Shown here: positions 7,132 to 62,732 of the stretch, piece after piece
How the letters are laid out: each line of letters begins with the position of its first letter
Numbering within the stretch: the first letter of the stretch is position 1
Assembly: GCF_005503695.1 (NCBI RefSeq)
Contig: NZ_SCMU01000012.1
Location: forward strand, 1 to 64,000
Source: Sphingopyxis sp. 2PD
GTDB taxonomy: Bacteria; Pseudomonadota; Alphaproteobacteria; Sphingomonadales; Sphingomonadaceae
DNA: 64,000 nucleotides
Direction of reading: 5' to 3'
Notes under the pieces: model-generated
Seen by the model: only the letters and a program-made list of their open reading frames with translations
Databases searched by the model: none
What the model was told of the DNA's origin: nothing
Made by a program: the position numbers and the translations under genes

Positions 7132-8358
7132 ATGACGAACCACAAATCCGACCTGCTGCGCGTCCTCGATGATCGAGGCTATATCCACCAGATGACCGAC
7201 GCGGAAGGGCTCGATGCGCTCGCGTCGAAACAGGTCGTCCCCGGATATATCGGTTTCGACGCAACCGCGCCCAGCCTGCACGTCGGTAGCCTCGTCCAGA
7301 TCATGATGCTGCGCCGCCTGCAACAGACGGGGCACAAACCGATAGTGCTGATGGGCGGCGCAACGACGCGGATCGGCGACCCGACGGGTCGCGACGAAAG
7401 CCGCAAGATGCTGTCGGACGAGACGATCGCGGCGAACATCGCGTCGATCTTCAGCATCTTTCAGCAGTTCCTGACCTTTGGCGACGGCCCGACCGACGCG
7501 GTGATGGTCAACAACCAGGACTGGCTCGGCAAGCTCGGTTACATCGAATTGCTGCAGGAAGTCGGCACGCATTTTACGATCAACCGGATGATGACGTTCG
7601 ATTCGGTCAAGCTGCGGCTCGAACGCGAACAGCCGATGACCTTCCTCGAATTCAATTACATGATCCTGCAGGGTTATGATTTCCGCCATCTGTCGAGGGA
7701 GATGGGGGCGCGGCTGCAAATGGGCGGGTCGGACCAGTGGGGCAATATCGTCAACGGCATGGAGCTCGGCCGCCGCATGGACGGCGCAGACCTTTACGGT
7801 CTGACGACTCCGCTGCTTACCACGGCGGCGGGGGCCAAAATGGGCAAAACCGCCGCGGGTGCGGTGTGGCTTAATCCCGCCCAACTGTCCCATTTTGACT
7901 ATTGGCAGTTCTGGCGCAATTGCGACGACCGCGATGTCGGACGCTTCCTGAAGCTGTTCACCGACCTGCCGCTCGAAGAGATCGCGCGGCTCGAAGCGCT
8001 GGGCGGGGCCGAAATCAACGAGGCGAAGAAAATACTGGCAAACGAAGCGACCGCGCTATGCCGCGGCGCCGATGCCGCCAAAGTTGCCGCCGAGACCGCC
8101 GCGCAAACCTTTGAAAAAGGCCAGATTGGTGGCGACCTGCCGCAGGTAGCCGCGCCCGCCGAAGGGATCAGCGTCGTCGATGCGCTGCGCGAACTGGGCT
8201 TTGCGGCGTCGAACAAGGAAGCGCGGCGCAAGCTCGACGAGGGGGCGGTCAAGGTCGACGGCGTCGTCATTCGCGACCCACATCACCTGATTACGCCGGG
8301 GGCCGATCCGGTGCCGCTGAGCCTGGGCGCGAAAAAACATGGCCTTGTGACGCGGTAA
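7132..8358 (+). CDS. tyrS: Tyrosyl-tRNA synthetase
   Basis: A 408-residue class I aminoacyl-tRNA synthetase that charges tRNA-Tyr. The HIGH-type signature is HVGS at 50-53 and the KMSKS loop appears as KMGKT at 236-240, a form common in bacterial TyrS. The catalytic domain covers about 1-320; the C-terminal S4-like RNA-binding domain spans about 340-400 ([17 protein letters not shown]). Length is normal for the family. The gene stands alone on its strand, with its promoter in the short gap shared with the DOMON-like gene. Confidence 0.97.
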
Positions 8359-8405
8359 GGCGCAGAAACGCGTTTACCCAATCTTCAGCAATCGAGTGGA
8401 TCGTC

Positions 8406-8774
8406 ATGCCCAAACCAACAAGGTCCACTAAAATGCGCAAGATCGATACCAGCAAGGCCCATTATGTCGGCCTCGACCAGCGAATTGCTCCGCGTAGCGA
8501 CGTCTATGTTCGCCTGCCCTTTGTCATGCCCGACGGTCGGCAGGAAATGTGCACCTGCGTCAACATCAGCGCCGACGGTATGCTGATGCGCTTCGAACGC
8601 GGGCTCGAGATCGGCGACCTTGTCGTATTCCGCATGCCGATCATCGGCCGCACCGCGGCGAAGGTCGTATGGTCATTGGGCGGCAAGACCGGTGTCCAGT
8701 TCGACAAATCAATCGCGGTCGAAGATTATCTGCCGATGATCCGTGCGATGGGTGCACGGGCTGACGTGAATTAG
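8406..8774 (+). CDS. PilZ domain protein
   Basis: A 122-residue protein consisting essentially of one PilZ domain, the c-di-GMP binding fold. The RxxxR motif is in QRIAPRSD (about 25-32) and the second motif is NISADGM (about 55-61), close to the usual (D/N)xSxxG. An internal ATG at 8436 would remove 10 residues and also keep the domain intact. Its target is not evident from neighbours. An EAL-domain phosphodiesterase 6 kb away could modulate the same second messenger. Confidence 0.85.
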   Translation: MPKPTRSTKMRKIDTSKAHYVGLDQRIAPRSDVYVRLPFVMPDGRQEMCTCVNISADGMLMRFERGLEIGDLVVFRMPIIGRTAAKVVWSLGGKTGVQFDKSIAVEDYLPMIRAMGARADVN

Positions 8775-8793
8775 ACAAATATACCGATTACAA

Positions 8794-8860
8794 CCGTAGC
8801 CCTGAGCTTGTCGAAGGGCGCTTCTCGGTGAAGCGCCCTTCGACAAGCTCAGGGCTACGG
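8794..8860. repeat. Perfect 30-base inverted repeat (CCTGAGCTTGTCGAAGGGCG family)
   Basis: Arms 8794-8823 and 8831-8860 are exact reverse complements with a 7-base loop (CTCGGTG). It lies between the converging PilZ and recG genes, so it can act as a bidirectional terminator in RNA. The core CCTGAGCTTGTCGAAGGGCG recurs at 14893. Confidence 0.9.
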
Positions 8861-8880
8861 TGCATTGGCCATCAACTTGA

Positions 8881-10947
8881 TCATCCACTCCTGAGCAGCG
8901 GCACCGCCGCGTCGCGCTCGAACAGATAGAGGCAGTGCCGCACCGCCTCGCCGCGCGCGCCGTCCATCCCGCCGTCGCGTTCGACGAACAGCCGCGCATC
9001 GTCGTGCGCCACCGGTAACAGCCGTACCAATTGCTCGGCGCTCGCAAGCCCATAATCGGCGTCGCCCGACTGTTTCAGCCCCAGCAACTCGCCGCCGCCG
9101 CGCAGCTCCAGGTCCTTCTCGGCGATCACGAACCCGTCGTTCGTCTCGCGCATCAGCGCCAGCCGTTCGCGCGCGGTTTCGGACAGGTTTTGCGAGCGCA
9201 GCAACAGGCACACCGATTTCGCCGTGCCGCGCCCGACCCGTCCGCGCAGCTGGTGGAGCTGTGCGAGGCCGAAGCGGTCAGCATGTTCGACGATCATCAG
9301 GCTGGCGGCGGGAACATCGACCCCGACCTCGATCACCGTCGTCGCGACCAGCACCCCGATGTCGCCGGCCTGGAACCGCGCCATGACGTCATCCTTGTCC
9401 GGCCCTTTCATCCGCCCATGGACCAGCCCGACGCGGTCGGCGCCCAACCGCTCGCGCAGCAGCGCGGCGCGGTCCTCGGCAGCGGCGAGCTCGCTCGTCT
9501 CGCTCTCGGCAACCAGCGGGCAGACCCAATAGGCCTGCGCCCCTGTCGCCAGATGGCGCTCCAACCCGCCGACCACCTCATCAAGCCGGTCGACCGATAC
9601 GACGCGCGTATCAACCGGAGTGCGCCCCGGCGGCATTTCGTCGATCCGCGACACGTCCATCTCGCCATGATTGGCAAGTTGCAGGGTGCGGGGGATCGGG
9701 GTCGCGGTCATCACCAGCAGGTGCGGCGGCCGCGCCGCCTTCTGCGTGAGCATCAACCGCTGCGCGACGCCGAAGCGGTGCTGCTCGTCCACGACCACTA
9801 GCGCCAGATCGCGGTACGTCACCGCATCCTGAAAAATCGCGTGGGTGCCGACCAATATGTCGATGCTGCCGTCGGCAAGCCCCATCAGCGTCGATTCGCG
9901 CACCCGCCCCTTGTCGCGCCCGGTCAGGATCGCAATGTTCACCGGCAGTCCGGCGAGCATCGCCTGTAACGTCGCGAAATGCTGGCGCGCCAAAATCTCG
10001 GTCGGCGCGAGCAGCGCCGCCTGCGTTCCCGCCTCGACCGCCGCCAGCATCGCGCGCAGCGCGACCAGCGTCTTGCCCGATCCGACATCGCCTTGCAGCA
10101 TCCGCAGCATCGGGGTTTCGCGGCCCATGTCGGCGGCAATCTCGCGCCCCACCCGCTCCTGCGCGCCGGTCAGACCGAACGGCAGCCGCAGCGCACCCAC
10201 CAGCCGCCCGTCGCCGACCACCGCGCGCCCCTTGCGCTTGCGCAGCCCCTCGCGGATCAGCATCAGCGCGACCTGGCTGGCGAAAATCTCGTCATAGGCC
10301 AGCCGGTCGCGCGCCGCCGCATCCTGCGGGCTGGCGTGCGCGCGCGTCAGCGCCTCGCGCCACGCAGGCCAGTCGCGGCTGGTCAGCAGCGGGCCGTCGA
10401 TCCATTCGGCAAGTTCGGGGCGCCGTTCGAGCGCTATTTCGACCAGCTGCGACAGACGCGCGTTGGTCAGTCCTTCGGTCAGCGGATAGACGGGTTCGTG
10501 GATCGCGATCCCCGCTTCGTCGCCCGGCTCGACGACTTGGTCGGGATGGACGATCTGGCGCATCTCGCCATAGAGGTCGAGCCGCCCCGACACGCGGCGC
10601 TTCTCTCCGAGCGGGAACAGCTTGCGCGCGAGGCCCGAGGTCCGTCCGAAATAGACGAGCCGGACATGGTCGCCCGCACTGTCGAACGCCTCGACCCCGA
10701 AGGGCGCGCGTGGGGATCGGCCCGGACGATAGTCCTGCGCGGTCAGATCGACGATGATCGTCTGCCCCGCCTGCGCTTCGTCGAGCCGGTCGACCGGAAA
10801 ACGCGAGATCAATCCCGTCGGCAGGTGAAACAGTACATCCACGACGCGTTCCAGCCCCAGCCGCGTCAGCGGCTTGGCCAGCTGCGGGCCAACACCCTTC
10901 AGGTCTGTGAGCGCGGCAAAGAGCGGATTGAGGATTTCGGGTCGCAT
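8881..10947 (-). CDS. recG: ATP-dependent DNA helicase RecG
   Basis: A 688-residue superfamily 2 helicase that remodels stalled forks and branched DNA. The N-terminal wedge (OB-fold) domain occupies about 1-230. The Walker A motif GDVGSGKT lies near residue 285 and the DExH box DEQH near 385, followed by SATPIPRT-like (TATPIPRT) and the C-terminal helicase motif QLRGRVGRG. The reading frame stays open upstream for another 45 codons, but those run through the palindrome at 10975-11055; the ATG at 10947 gives the family N-terminus MRPEILNPLF and is preferred. Length fits RecG. Confidence 0.97.
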   Translation of the reverse strand: MRPEILNPLFAALTDLKGVGPQLAKPLTRLGLERVVDVLFHLPTGLISRFPVDRLDEAQAGQTIIVDLTAQDYRPGRSPRAPFGVEAFDSAGDHVRLVYFGRTSGLARKLFPLGEKRRVSGRLDLYGEMRQIVHPDQVVEPGDEAGIAIHEPVYPLTEGLTNARLSQLVEIALERRPELAEWIDGPLLTSRDWPAWREALTRAHASPQDAAARDRLAYDEIFASQVALMLIREGLRKRKGRAVVGDGRLVGALRLPFGLTGAQERVGREIAADMGRETPMLRMLQGDVGSGKTLVALRAMLAAVEAGTQAALLAPTEILARQHFATLQAMLAGLPVNIAILTGRDKGRVRESTLMGLADGSIDILVGTHAIFQDAVTYRDLALVVVDEQHRFGVAQRLMLTQKAARPPHLLVMTATPIPRTLQLANHGEMDVSRIDEMPPGRTPVDTRVVSVDRLDEVVGGLERHLATGAQAYWVCPLVAESETSELAAAEDRAALLRERLGADRVGLVHGRMKGPDKDDVMARFQAGDIGVLVATTVIEVGVDVPAASLMIVEHADRFGLAQLHQLRGRVGRGTAKSVCLLLRSQNLSETARERLALMRETNDGFVIAEKDLELRGGGELLGLKQSGDADYGLASAEQLVRLLPVAHDDARLFVERDGGMDGARGEAVRHCLYLFERDAAVPLLRSG

Positions 10948-59378: not shown

Positions 59379-61319
59379 TCAAATCTGCACCTGACTGCCG
59401 AGCTCGACCACGCGGTTGGTCGGGATCCTGAACGACTCCATCGCGCTTTCCGAGCTCTTGCTCATCCAGGCAAACAGGCGCTCGCGCCACAACGCCATGC
59501 CGGGCGTCCGCGTCGACGCCACCAGCTTTTGCCGACCCAGAAAGAAGCTGGCGGTCATCAGGTCGAATGGCGCACCGATCCGCGTCAGCTTCGCCAGGTC
59601 GCGGGGGACATCGACATCCTCCATAAAGCCATAATGCAGGATGACGCGGTAAAAGCCCCGACCGGCGTCGTGGACGTCGACGCGCCGGCCCGCCTCCACA
59701 TATGGTTCGTCGGCAACCTGCACGGTCAGGATCAACACCCGTTCGTGCAACACCTGGTTGTGCTTCAGATTGTGCAGCAACGCCGAGGGAACCCCGTCGG
59801 GCGACGCCGACATGAACACCGCGGTGTTGCGGACCCGGTGTGCCGACATCGCCGCCGATTCGATGAATACCGGCAACGGGATGGCCCCCTCGTCCAGCCG
59901 CTCGCGCATCAGGCGGCGCCCCTTCGACCAGGTGGTCAGCACCGTGAACAGGATGGCGGCGACCACCAGCGGGAACCAGCCGCCGTCGGGGATCTTGGTG
60001 ATGTTCGAGGCAAAATAGGTGCCGTCGACGAGCAGAAACAACCCGATCGTCATCGTCGCCAGCCATTTGTTCCAGCGCCACACCTTGAAGAGCAAAAAGG
60101 CCAGCATCAATGTGGTAATCAACATCGTCCCGATGACCGAGATGCCATAGGCCGATGCAAGCCGGGTCGATTCGCCGAAGCCAAGGACCAAGACCAGCAC
60201 CATCGCCAACAGGCTCCAGTTGATCGCCGGAATATAGATTTGTCCCGCGGCCTTTTCGCTGGTGTGGAGGGTGCGCAACCGCGGCAGGAAACCGAGCTGG
60301 ATCGCCTGATGCGTAACCGAAAAGGCGCCGGAAATCACCGCCTGGCTGGCGATGATCGTCGCCGCCGTCGCGATCAAAACCAGCGGCAGACGCGCCCACT
60401 CTGGCGCCATCAGATAGAATGGATTTTCGACCGCCGCGGGCGTACCCAGCAACAGCGCCCCCTGCCCCATATAATTGAGCATCAGGCACGGATAGGCGAT
60501 CGTCAGCCAGCTGAGCCCCACCGCCTTGCGTCCGAAATGTCCCATGTCGGCGTATAGCGTTTCGGCACCGGTAACCGCCAGAAACACCGATCCCATCGCG
60601 AGAAACGCCAACCGGGTATCGTACAGAAAAAATTCAAACGCCCAATAGGGGTTCACGATGCCCAGAATCTCCGGATGGTCTGCAATATTGACCACCCCCA
60701 GGGTCGCTAGCGTCGCGAAATAGATCAGCACGATCGGACCGAACAATGCCCCGACCCTCGCGGTCCCCCGCGACTGGATCAGAAACAACGCGACCATGAT
60801 GACAACCGCGATCGGCAGAACCAACGGTTGCAGACTCGCCTCGACAACGGTCAGCCCCTCGACCGCCGACAACACCGAGATCGCTGGGGTCAGCATTGCG
60901 TCGCCATAGAACATCGACGCTGCCAGAACGCCCAGGATAACGAGCGCCGCGTTCCAGCGGCCCGCACCAAAGTGCCGCGACACGAGCGCCAGCAGCGCAA
61001 AGGAACCGCCTTCGCCCCGATTGTGTGCGCGCATCGCAACGAAAACATATTTGACCGTCACGATCAGCATCAACGACCAGAAGATCAGACTGAGCACACC
61101 GAAGATGTGCAGCCGGTCCACGGCCAGTGGGTGCGGCCCGATGAAGCTTTCTTTCAGCGCGTATAGCGGCGAGGTACCGATGTCGCCGAACACGACACCG
61201 ATCGCGCCGAGCATGAGGATGGGCAGGCGGTCCTTGGGACCGGTGGGTGCGGATGCCGCAGTGGCAGCGGGTAGAGCGTTGAGGTTTGTCATGAGGGGCG
61301 ATGTGGTCGCGATCGGCAT
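59379..61319 (-). CDS. kup: Kup potassium uptake protein
   Basis: A 646-residue KUP/HAK/KT-family potassium-proton symporter. The signature GVVFGDIGTSPLYALKE is near residues 41-57, followed by about twelve membrane segments (for example MFYGDAMLTPAISVLSAVEG) and a C-terminal soluble domain of about 150 residues. The ATG at 61319 is preferred; a longer frame reaches 61421 but overlaps the divergent gene, and ATG 61292 has no ribosome site. The divergent KdpD/KdpE-like chimera begins about 67 bases away, which suggests that this regulator controls kup. Confidence 0.95.
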   Translation of the reverse strand: MPIATTSPLMTNLNALPAATAASAPTGPKDRLPILMLGAIGVVFGDIGTSPLYALKESFIGPHPLAVDRLHIFGVLSLIFWSLMLIVTVKYVFVAMRAHNRGEGGSFALLALVSRHFGAGRWNAALVILGVLAASMFYGDAMLTPAISVLSAVEGLTVVEASLQPLVLPIAVVIMVALFLIQSRGTARVGALFGPIVLIYFATLATLGVVNIADHPEILGIVNPYWAFEFFLYDTRLAFLAMGSVFLAVTGAETLYADMGHFGRKAVGLSWLTIAYPCLMLNYMGQGALLLGTPAAVENPFYLMAPEWARLPLVLIATAATIIASQAVISGAFSVTHQAIQLGFLPRLRTLHTSEKAAGQIYIPAINWSLLAMVLVLVLGFGESTRLASAYGISVIGTMLITTLMLAFLLFKVWRWNKWLATMTIGLFLLVDGTYFASNITKIPDGGWFPLVVAAILFTVLTTWSKGRRLMRERLDEGAIPLPVFIESAAMSAHRVRNTAVFMSASPDGVPSALLHNLKHNQVLHERVLILTVQVADEPYVEAGRRVDVHDAGRGFYRVILHYGFMEDVDVPRDLAKLTRIGAPFDLMTASFFLGRQKLVASTRTPGMALWRERLFAWMSKSSESAMESFRIPTNRVVELGSQVQI

Positions 61320-61385
61320 AAAGATTCCATGTGGAATTGACCGCACCGGCTCGACAGGCTCGCTTCGCAGGCGCATTTGTTGCGC

Positions 61386-62732
61386 ATGCATACCGTCCCG
61401 ACCGGCCGACGCTTTCGGCAAGATGAAATGGCTGTCCGCCTTGGCGGTTTCGCCGCGACCCTGTTGTTGATCGCGGTCGCCACGATCGCCGGACTGCTCA
61501 TCGCGCCGCGCTGGGGTAGCGGGCCGGTAGCGCTGCTTTATATTCCGCCGGTGCTGGCGGCCGCGCTGCTATCCGGATTCTGGCCTGCATTCGCCACCGC
61601 CGCGCTTTCGGCACTCGCCTATAATTTCTTTTTCACCGCCCCCTACGGCACGCTCATCATTCACAGCCCTGCCGACATCGTCACCGTCACCGTGCTGTTC
61701 CTCGTCGCAGCGGTGACCAGTCGCCTTGCCGCTTCGCTTCGTGAACAAAGTCGGCGCGCCGATGCGCATGCGGCGCGCAACGCCACCATCGCCGGCCTCG
61801 CCCGCCGCCTGCTTTCCTGCGCCGACGAAACGGCGATCGCAGAGGTCGCGGCCAGCGAACTGGCCCGATTGTTCGGCGCCCACACCGTGGTGGTCATGGG
61901 CGGCAAAACACCAACGATCGCCGCAATCGCGCCCACTGGCGCTGCACTCGGCCCGAATGATCTGGCGGCGGCGACATTGTGCATCGAATCCGCGCTCGTA
62001 ACCGGCCGCGGGATCGGGCGGGTCGACTTGACCGACTGGCAATTCCATCCCGTCATTGCGGGCGAGGCGGTACTGGCGGCAGCGGGACTGGCACATGCCG
62101 ACGGGTCGCCACCGGTAGACGAGCAGCAGCAGATTTTACTCGCCAATCTGCTCGACCAGATCGCGCTTGCGCTCGAACGTGCCCGGCTCGAGCGCGAGGC
62201 GCGCGATGTCGCCGGGCTACGCGAGCGCGACCGGCTGCGCTCGGCGCTGCTGACCGCGATCGGCGAGGATGTGAAACCGCGGCTGCACTCGATTGCCGCG
62301 GCGGCGCGCGCGATCCGGCGGGCGGGTGGCGGCATCGACCCCTCCCTCAGCGCCACGGTCGCCACCGAAGCCGCTCAGCTCGACCGATATGTCGACCGCC
62401 TTGTTGACCTCAATCCGGGCGATACGCGGGAACCGCTGGTCATCGGGCCGCTGGCGATCGACCTCCACAATCGCGTAGTGCGCCGCGACGGCACAGATGT
62501 GCATCTGACGCCCAAGGAATATGCGGTGCTCGCCGAACTCGCAAAACATGCGGGCCGCGTCCTGACGCACACGCATCTTCTGCGCGCCGTCTGGGGTCCA
62601 GCACAGCAGGAGCAGATCGACTATCTGCGCGTCGCGATCCGCAGCCTGCGCCTGAAACTCGAAAACGAACCTCAGCGCCCCGAATTTATCTTGAACGAGC
62701 CTGCCGTGGGCTATCGACTTACGGCACCATGA
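61386..62732 (+). CDS. KdpD-KdpE chimera: DUF4118 membrane sensor with winged-helix DNA-binding domain
   Basis: A 448-residue protein of unusual build. Residues about 20-110 are the DUF4118 four-helix membrane part of KdpD (ALSALAYNFFFTAPYGTLII). A GAF-like domain follows (about 125-275). About 280-340 look like the KdpD dimerisation helices, but where KdpD has SHDLRTPL this protein has GEDVKPRL: the phospho-acceptor His is Glu. There is no ATPase domain and no receiver domain. The chain goes directly into an OmpR/KdpE-type winged helix (about 350-448: DVHLTPKEYAVLAELAKHAG, LTHTHLLRAVWGP, VGYRL). This would be a phosphorylation-free, membrane-bound one-component regulator, divergent from kup. 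The start could also be 61428. Confidence 0.85.
   Translation: MHTVPTGRRFRQDEMAVRLGGFAATLLLIAVATIAGLLIAPRWGSGPVALLYIPPVLAAALLSGFWPAFATAALSALAYNFFFTAPYGTLIIHSPADIVTVTVLFLVAAVTSRLAASLREQSRRADAHAARNATIAGLARRLLSCADETAIAEVAASELARLFGAHTVVVMGGKTPTIAAIAPTGAALGPNDLAAATLCIESALVTGRGIGRVDLTDWQFHPVIAGEAVLAAAGLAHADGSPPVDEQQQILLANLLDQIALALERARLEREARDVAGLRERDRLRSALLTAIGEDVKPRLHSIAAAARAIRRAGGGIDPSLSATVATEAAQLDRYVDRLVDLNPGDTREPLVIGPLAIDLHNRVVRRDGTDVHLTPKEYAVLAELAKHAGRVLTHTHLLRAVWGPAQQEQIDYLRVAIRSLRLKLENEPQRPEFILNEPAVGYRLTAP

Follow-up and report, generated by a model that had tools for sequence, protein, structure and literature searches.

Analysis of a 64,000-nucleotide stretch of the Sphingopyxis sp. 2PD genome (NCBI RefSeq assembly GCF_005503695.1, contig NZ_SCMU01000012.1, positions 1 to 64,000 of the forward strand; referred to below as the window) reveals a gene in which the sensor part of a KdpD-type kinase is joined in one chain to the DNA-binding domain of KdpE, and which lies head-to-head with a gene for the potassium transporter Kup. 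We regard it as probable, with good though not full confidence, that this chimera is a membrane one-component regulator of kup. The function is inferred, and there are no binding, expression or signal data to set beside it. The original prediction had assigned the protein the same role, which is now supported by linkage to kup at all 29 chimera loci and by a conserved intergenic element, although not by experiment. Overall, the analysis confirms and extends the idea of a two-component system that has collapsed to a membrane one-component regulator: the kind is known, and the comparative evidence is unusually full, with no experiment behind it.

Architecture and distribution of the chimera

The chimeric gene (Table 1) occupies an uninterrupted frame, the coding part of which ends at 62729, and specifies 448 amino acids followed by a stop codon. 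The order of parts in this one frame is DUF4118, GAF, a remnant DHp hairpin and a KdpE winged helix, so that the KdpD/KdpE chimera first read from the window is real. A frameshift separating two genes would have refuted that reading; none splits the window gene, and the 14 relatives aligned with it (51–73% identity) share its architecture. An artefact or frameshift splitting two genes is likewise ruled out by the occurrence of the same architecture in 28 intact relatives.

Table 1. Coordinates of the chimeric gene, its parts and the neighbouring features in the window.
Feature	Position	Strand	Basis or remark
kup potassium transporter, proposed target	59379..61292	-	K_trans E 1.1e-183
Putative kup -10	61300..61305	-	Invariant distance from proposed operator; assigned by eye
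21-bp element, proposed operator, 11-bp-period direct repeat	61317..61337	+	Conserved between kup and chimera
Putative -35 CTCGAC of chimera promoter	61350..61355	+	Present downstream of element in 27/28 loci
Putative -10 CATTTG of chimera promoter	61374..61379	+	6 nt before start codon; read from sequence and aligned promoters, by eye
Chimeric gene, KdpD-type sensor joined to KdpE DNA-binding domain	61386..62732	+	Open frame, domain matches, 15-row alignment
DUF4118 four-helix membrane domain, residues 23-126	61452..61763	+	Pfam E 2.6e-25
KdpD-type GAF domain, about residues 131-262	61776..62171	+	Structure match; Pfam GAF sub-threshold only
Remnant DHp two-helix hairpin, about residues 277-341	62214..62408	+	Aligned to HisKA region of short KdpDs
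Glu294 codon at phospho-His position	62265..62267	+	Alignment of His box
KdpE-type winged helix, residues 350-446	62433..62723	+	Pfam Trans_reg_C residues 369-445, E 3.1e-19

With respect to domain content, no Pfam match to HisKA, HATPase, receiver, N-terminal KdpD (serine kinase) or USP was obtained in the chimera in a search to E≤10, in agreement with the earlier statement that the chain lacks HATPase and receiver domains. Matches to DUF4118 in the window's genome are confined to the chimera. The best NCBIfam matches are KdpD for residues 9–302 and KdpE for residues 349–445, the latter only from profile position 126 on; both lie under the whole-protein cut-offs of these models, as expected with a partial chain. 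Consistent with these boundaries, similarity to KdpEs starts at the inter-domain linker, and similarity to KdpDs stops at DHp helix 2. The SHDLRTPL box of the kinase had been read correctly as GEDVKPRL, with Glu294 in place of the conserved His in the window protein. The kinase domain had, however, been described as missing, and this holds for the HATPase domain and the phospho-His but not for the kinase core as a whole, part of which remains as the DHp hairpin.

A single-chain AlphaFold model of the chimera (7 rows; mean pLDDT 80.9, pTM 0.49) places helices at residues 8–43, 47–63, 65–84 and 95–143 in the N-terminal membrane part, followed by the GAF domain, a long helix (246–312), a return helix (319–341) and the winged helix. 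The best solved match of the modelled winged helix is DNA-bound KdpE (4kfc, Z 19.2), and model residues 131–273 match the GAF domain of E. coli KdpD (4qpr, VIA Z 18.6). In Foldseek, this domain of E. coli KdpD appears again (4y2f) as the match ranked 21.

A scan of genome contigs gave 24 loci, seven of which belong to the chimera family (one of them frameshifted); the others matched the sensor part only or the DNA-binding part only. Of 397 genomes searched from the window's family, a group of soil and water bacteria, 22 carry a full-length relative, defined as a single stop-free frame that covers at least 430 of the 447 profile positions; the next-best rows in this search end where the KdpD part ends. 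The resulting set comprises 29 loci, namely 28 intact chimeras and the frameshifted L043. No full-length chimera was found outside the window's family in searches of its class (385 genomes) and phylum (349 genomes) at E≤1e-40, where sampling was thin. Of 709 plasmid records with a match, the 20 listed all fell below 60% identity and were each joined from two pieces; we read these as separate kdpD and kdpE genes.

The phospho-His column of the 28 chimeras contains Glu (12), Gln (8), Asp (3) and, once each, Ser, Thr, Ala, Arg and His, such that the His is lost in 27 and present in L040 alone. Phosphotransfer could in principle still operate in trans, with another kinase phosphorylating the DHp remnant or a partner: the hairpin is retained, the acidic residue beside the His position is kept in the relatives read, and L040 has the His. 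We nonetheless consider this highly improbable given the loss of the His nearly throughout, the lack of a receiver in the chain and the near absence of other sequences that match the chimera profile. Specifically, only one of 22 chimera genomes had another such hit at E≤1e-20, whereas 139 of 375 other genomes had a match (Fisher p 0.001), although the 139 include genomes whose sole match at this threshold may be a response-regulator domain.

Mean pairwise identity in the chimeras is highest in the winged helix (0.710), followed by the membrane domain (0.589), DHp (0.543) and the GAF domain (0.534), the least conserved part. Across the chimeras 67 residues are invariant, and dN/dS for the winged helix is 0.05–0.16 in 11 pairs (by a simple counting method, with some dS values saturated). 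Judged from these sequence comparisons, the chimeras are under purifying selection. In the frameshifted locus L043 (7833–9260; Sphingomonas daechungensis KACC 18115) the chimera is broken into four pieces that fall in different frames; the adjacent kup is intact and the intergenic element perfect. The break-up of the chimera may represent either recent decay or assembly errors. Such a relative is what one might expect if the window gene were a decaying, functionless kdpDE remnant, as Rsp may be in gonococci. That reading seems very hard to sustain against 28 intact copies, the low dN/dS, the invariant residues and an intergenic element conserved far above its flanks.

Linkage to kup and the intergenic element

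The adjacency to kup described in the original prediction extends to the whole family, in that kup is the divergent, head-to-head neighbour at 29/29 chimera loci, and we reject chance adjacency on this count. Each of the 22 chimera genomes has two kup genes, as does that of the window, in which no kdpA match was found. The second kup of the window's genome (G000:C30:12363-13736, locus L109) falls outside the chimera-kup clades and is without the intergenic element within the surrounding 10 kb, where the best match has 6 mismatches. In the kup tree, the chimera-linked kups themselves split into two clades of 24 and 4, the minority (L038, L039, L040 and L123) grouping at 100/100. The sensors of L038 and L040 group with those of L036, L037 and L117 at 99/99, and the kups of the latter three are in the other clade; L036 is the locus of the cultivable Sphingomonas sediminicola KACC 15039. 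Judging by these trees, one kup was apparently swapped for another with no loss of the linkage or the element, with the caveat that 14% of bootstrap trees hold all 28 chimera kups together and that the L038 kup is partial.

In terms of the classical Kdp transporter, kdpA occurs in one of the 22 chimera genomes, G529 (L127, L179). In the 149-genome sample it was found in 0/9 chimera genomes as against 38/140 others (p 0.11), which makes avoidance of kdpA by chimera genomes only suggestive; the lack of other KdpDE-like matches noted above is the stronger signal. A weaker KdpE-like repeat is present upstream of kdpA in G529. Elsewhere, at L107 of G007 (7204–9607), the kdp region is apparently broken, with the sensor spread over several open frames and kdpA in two pieces.

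Between kup and the chimera lies a 21-bp element, CATAAAGATTCCATGTGGATT, which is found at 29/29 loci with 0–4 mismatches; the runner-up match at each chimera locus has at least 6, and conservation falls steeply outside the ends of the element. At ≤3 mismatches it is present in 28 of the 397 family genomes, comprising 21/22 chimera genomes vs 7/375 others (Fisher p 6e-28). The exception among the chimera genomes, G580, has 4 mismatches, and the seven non-chimera sites all have 3. It should be stressed that the element was discovered at the chimera loci and then counted, and the family-wide test is thus not independent of its discovery. A control with the reversed element gave none among the matches listed. 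The window's genome contains a single match at ≤3 mismatches, and the chimera genomes G622 and G654 each carry a second, weaker site elsewhere (2 and 3 mismatches, respectively).

The non-chimera sites lie in kdp regions (G691, G661), inside open frames (G082, G602, G671) or upstream of a gene that we named by eye as band-7/SPFH-like (G530, G581); no full-length chimera was found in G530 or G581 in the 397-genome search. Near position 1500 of L205, L206 and L210 (G530, G581 and G622, all of one genus), an element-like site with 2–3 mismatches precedes such a band-7/SPFH-like gene.

The half-sites of the element, CATAAAG and CATGTGG, are 11 bp apart. With CATGTGG as its second half-site, the element is only a partial match to the KdpE repeat, and an inverted repeat is another possible reading of it. 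Under a strict pattern, CATAAAG-type repeats with an 11-bp period occur upstream of kdpA in 5 of 20 regions (19 of the 38 kdpA genomes plus G529), with none at 12 other periods. By score, the KdpE repeat is found before kdpA in 7/20. The repeat was thus not found at all kdpA genes, the strict form being missing from 15 of these 20 upstream regions. In E. coli, KdpE binds TTTATA-N5-TTTACA, likewise with an 11-bp period, and the DNA-binding domain of KdpE on its own can bind without activating, as far as the accessible part of the source reports (PMC3264566). When reverse-complemented, the first half-site of the element closely resembles TTTATA.

Relationship to two-component and one-component systems

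In some genomes a short KdpD of about 500 aa, which starts at DUF4118 and keeps its HATPase domain, is followed by a complete kdpE beside kup. At locus L101 of genome G003 this gene pair is head-to-head with kup, in the same layout as in the window. These two-gene loci resemble the chimera in the sister relationship of the L101 sensor, in the head-to-head kup and in the order of domains up to DHp; they differ in having two genes, HATPase and receiver domains and an intact GHDLRTPL box. Aligned with short KdpD plus KdpE, the chimera is missing just the HATPase and the receiver, and it consists of short KdpD to the end of DHp helix 2, a linker of about 8 residues, and the inter-domain linker and winged helix of KdpE.

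Phylogenetic analysis is in line with this junction. In the sensor tree (63 rows), 27 chimeras form a single clade at 100/100, with the L101 sensor as its sister (99/93), and in the DNA-binding-domain tree the chimeras are again one clade (95/90). The latter tree is poorly resolved and does not place the sister kdpE of L101 beside the chimeras. The short-KdpD kups of L101, L131 and L132 fall beside 24 of the 28 chimera kups in the kup tree, with weak support (85/69). The earlier proposal of origin by deletion across adjacent kdpD and kdpE genes thus gains a living two-gene relative, a sensor sister and a matching junction. The DNA-binding-domain tree leaves the sister unresolved.

We also considered L040, the one chimera with a His, as a clean intermediate, and rejected it: in both trees it sits inside the chimera clade, so that its His either survived while other lineages lost theirs repeatedly, or was regained. 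L040 consequently does not show whether fusion or His loss came first.

Loci with a kup-adjacent short KdpD (no N-terminal KdpD/USP) plus KdpE were L101, L102, L103, L104, L131, L132 and L133, and the arrangement recurs outside the window's family at L156, L158 and L159. The strict 11-bp repeat lies beside kup at L131 and L133 and is missing from 5 of the 7 short-KdpD loci checked, including the sister L101. In the 149-genome sample, kdpA was not matched in G003, G075, G035 or G127, all carriers of kup-linked short KdpD/KdpE, which suggests KdpDE systems dedicated to Kup. Taken together, a route may be drawn from kdpDE to a short kdpDE captured by kup, and on to a fusion with loss of the HATPase, the receiver and the His, in which the DHp hairpin became a mechanical coupler setting the geometry of two KdpE winged helices on one operator for two divergent promoters, at a fixed distance on the kup side and at distances that vary by roughly whole helical turns on the side of the regulator's own promoter. 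We give evenly balanced credence to this route as a natural two- to one-component conversion. What the comparison suggests in any case is a two-component system that collapsed into one part and kept working.

Measured against the parent systems, the chimera shares with KdpD/KdpE the DUF4118, GAF and winged helix parts and a related DNA repeat of 11-bp period. It differs in lacking the N-terminal KdpD/USP part, the HATPase and the receiver, in replacement of the His in 27/28 chimeras, and in being linked to kup, with kdpA absent from 21/22 chimera genomes. Among the features of a KdpD kinase, DUF4118 and the KdpD-type GAF domain are present, and HATPase_c, the phospho-His and N-terminal KdpD/USP are missing; for KdpE, the OmpR-type winged helix is present and the receiver with its phosphorylatable Asp is not. 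A hybrid two-component regulator would require a histidine kinase core in the chain, of which there is only a His-less DHp remnant. By its domain content and the predicted four-helix membrane part, the chimera instead appears to qualify as a transmembrane one-component regulator, which combines a sensor and a DNA-binding domain without kinase or receiver.

The description of the protein as ToxR-like stands in part. The chimera is of a membrane one-component type, and like ToxR and CadC it has an OmpR-type winged helix in a membrane protein without a phosphoryl acceptor. Its topology is unlike that of ToxR, however: proteins of the ToxR type are bitopic and carry the winged helix at the N-terminus, going by the available portion of PMC5936718, whereas in the chimera four N-terminal helices are followed by a GAF domain, and the winged helix is C-terminal. 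The chimera thus falls outside the ToxR family proper, which is marked by a winged helix at the N-terminus, one membrane helix and a periplasmic sensor.

The closest published parallel is Rsp of Neisseria gonorrhoeae, a PilS/PilR (Nps/Npa) fusion in which, to the extent that the accessible text of PMC10269533 and PMC6528607 covers it, a membrane sensor kinase and its cognate DNA-binding part are likewise found in one chain; sensor and regulator belong to other families than those of the chimera. The defining feature of an Rsp-like collapsed chimera, a kinase sensor joined to the cognate DNA-binding part with loss of kinase and receiver, is present here, as judged from the junction aligned with intact short KdpD plus KdpE and from the single clade. 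The two papers, in the parts available, disagree on the role of Rsp, which is cited as a repressor of pilA expression in a survey of transmembrane transcription regulators (PMC10269533) and is apparently without action on pilE transcription (PMC6528607). That no description of such a protein was known remains true of the chimera family itself, for which none was found in the literature searched (subscription papers were mostly outside its coverage); it does not hold for the kind, of which gonococcal Rsp is one published precedent. A census of KdpD variants drew on species with annotated Kdp(F)ABC, according to the accessible part of PMC11018627, and a census so limited would miss most chimera genomes.

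Surveys have supplied most of the arguments on how one- and two-component systems interconvert. The present case allows a direct comparison of an extant relative of the proposed ancestor (short kdpD plus kdpE beside kup), 28 intact versions of the chimera and a candidate operator. Our data further suggest that Kup is regulated in the chimera-carrying bacteria, unlike in E. coli, where it is called constitutively expressed (PMC5936718, as far as its accessible text extends).

Putative promoters and proposed mechanism

With respect to the direction of control, a TG lies at -13/-12 from the element in 28/28 loci and fits the start of a -10; the spacing from the element to this putative kup -10 is invariant, and the -35 of kup would fall within the element. 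The hexamer at the expected position reads GGAATC on the kup strand and resembles the consensus only poorly. On the other side of the element, the distance from CTCGAC to the start codon is 36–37 nt in 25 of the 27 loci that have this hexamer, and the distance from the element to CTCGAC takes values of 12–13, 22–24, 33 or 44–47 bp (one locus has a second copy at 93). The spacing between the element and the chimera's own putative promoter thus clusters near 12+11n bp. Over 27 loci, the concentration at period 11 reaches 0.93; random placement performs equally well in 0.07% of trials if the nine distinct values are used, and in 1% if the four class centres are. These statistics are indicative only, as the loci are related. 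With its would-be -35 inside the element, the kup side has the layout of activators that take the place of the -35, as at PhoB-type promoters. The fixed kup spacing and the 11-bp phasing are both what polymerase contact would produce, and so are consistent with an activator that also regulates its own gene.

The regulator could instead repress kup, occupying the -35 region and leaving the DNA at low potassium, and the element does cover the spot of the would-be kup -35. We find this unlikely in view of the poor hexamer there, and the invariant -10 spacing and roughly 11-bp phasing fit polymerase contact better than simple blocking. KdpE is, moreover, an activator in E. coli (PMC5936718, in the part available).

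In the activating reading that we prefer, an in-frame collapse of a kup-linked short-KdpD/KdpE two-component system would have yielded a membrane one-component regulator in which potassium is sensed by DUF4118 and GAF as it is by KdpD, a property transferred here from the E. coli protein. Dimerization would proceed via the DHp hairpin, and the signal would be passed on, without phosphotransfer, as a change in this dimeric hairpin that determines how two winged helices are arranged. The winged helices are presumed to bind the intergenic 21-bp element as a KdpE-like direct repeat, from which the bound regulator would activate kup when potassium is low and, via the 11-bp-phased sites, also its own gene. 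If true, this would demonstrate direct control of a DNA-binding domain by the hairpin of a histidine kinase, and the chimera would offer engineers a compact natural template for membrane sensors that work without phosphotransfer.

The same domains could instead sense something other than potassium, for example osmotic or membrane state, with kup as only one output: the GAF domain is the least conserved part (identity 0.534) and the C-terminal kinase part of KdpD is gone. This is possible, if rather doubtful, considering that kup is linked at every one of the 29 loci and that the window's genome holds only one matching element at ≤3 mismatches. In addition, the proposed K+ sites of KdpD, extracellular in the TM domain and intracellular in the GAF domain as given in the accessible part of PMC11018627, lie in domains that the chimera retains. 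It should be noted that the readings on polarity (repressor) and on signal (non-potassium) are nested sub-questions that overlap the one-component reading rather than competing with it. As a final observation on the window, in the region 61290–61388 no more than 6 or 7 nt separate each of the two divergent start codons from its putative -10, a distance suggestive of leaderless kup and chimera transcripts there.
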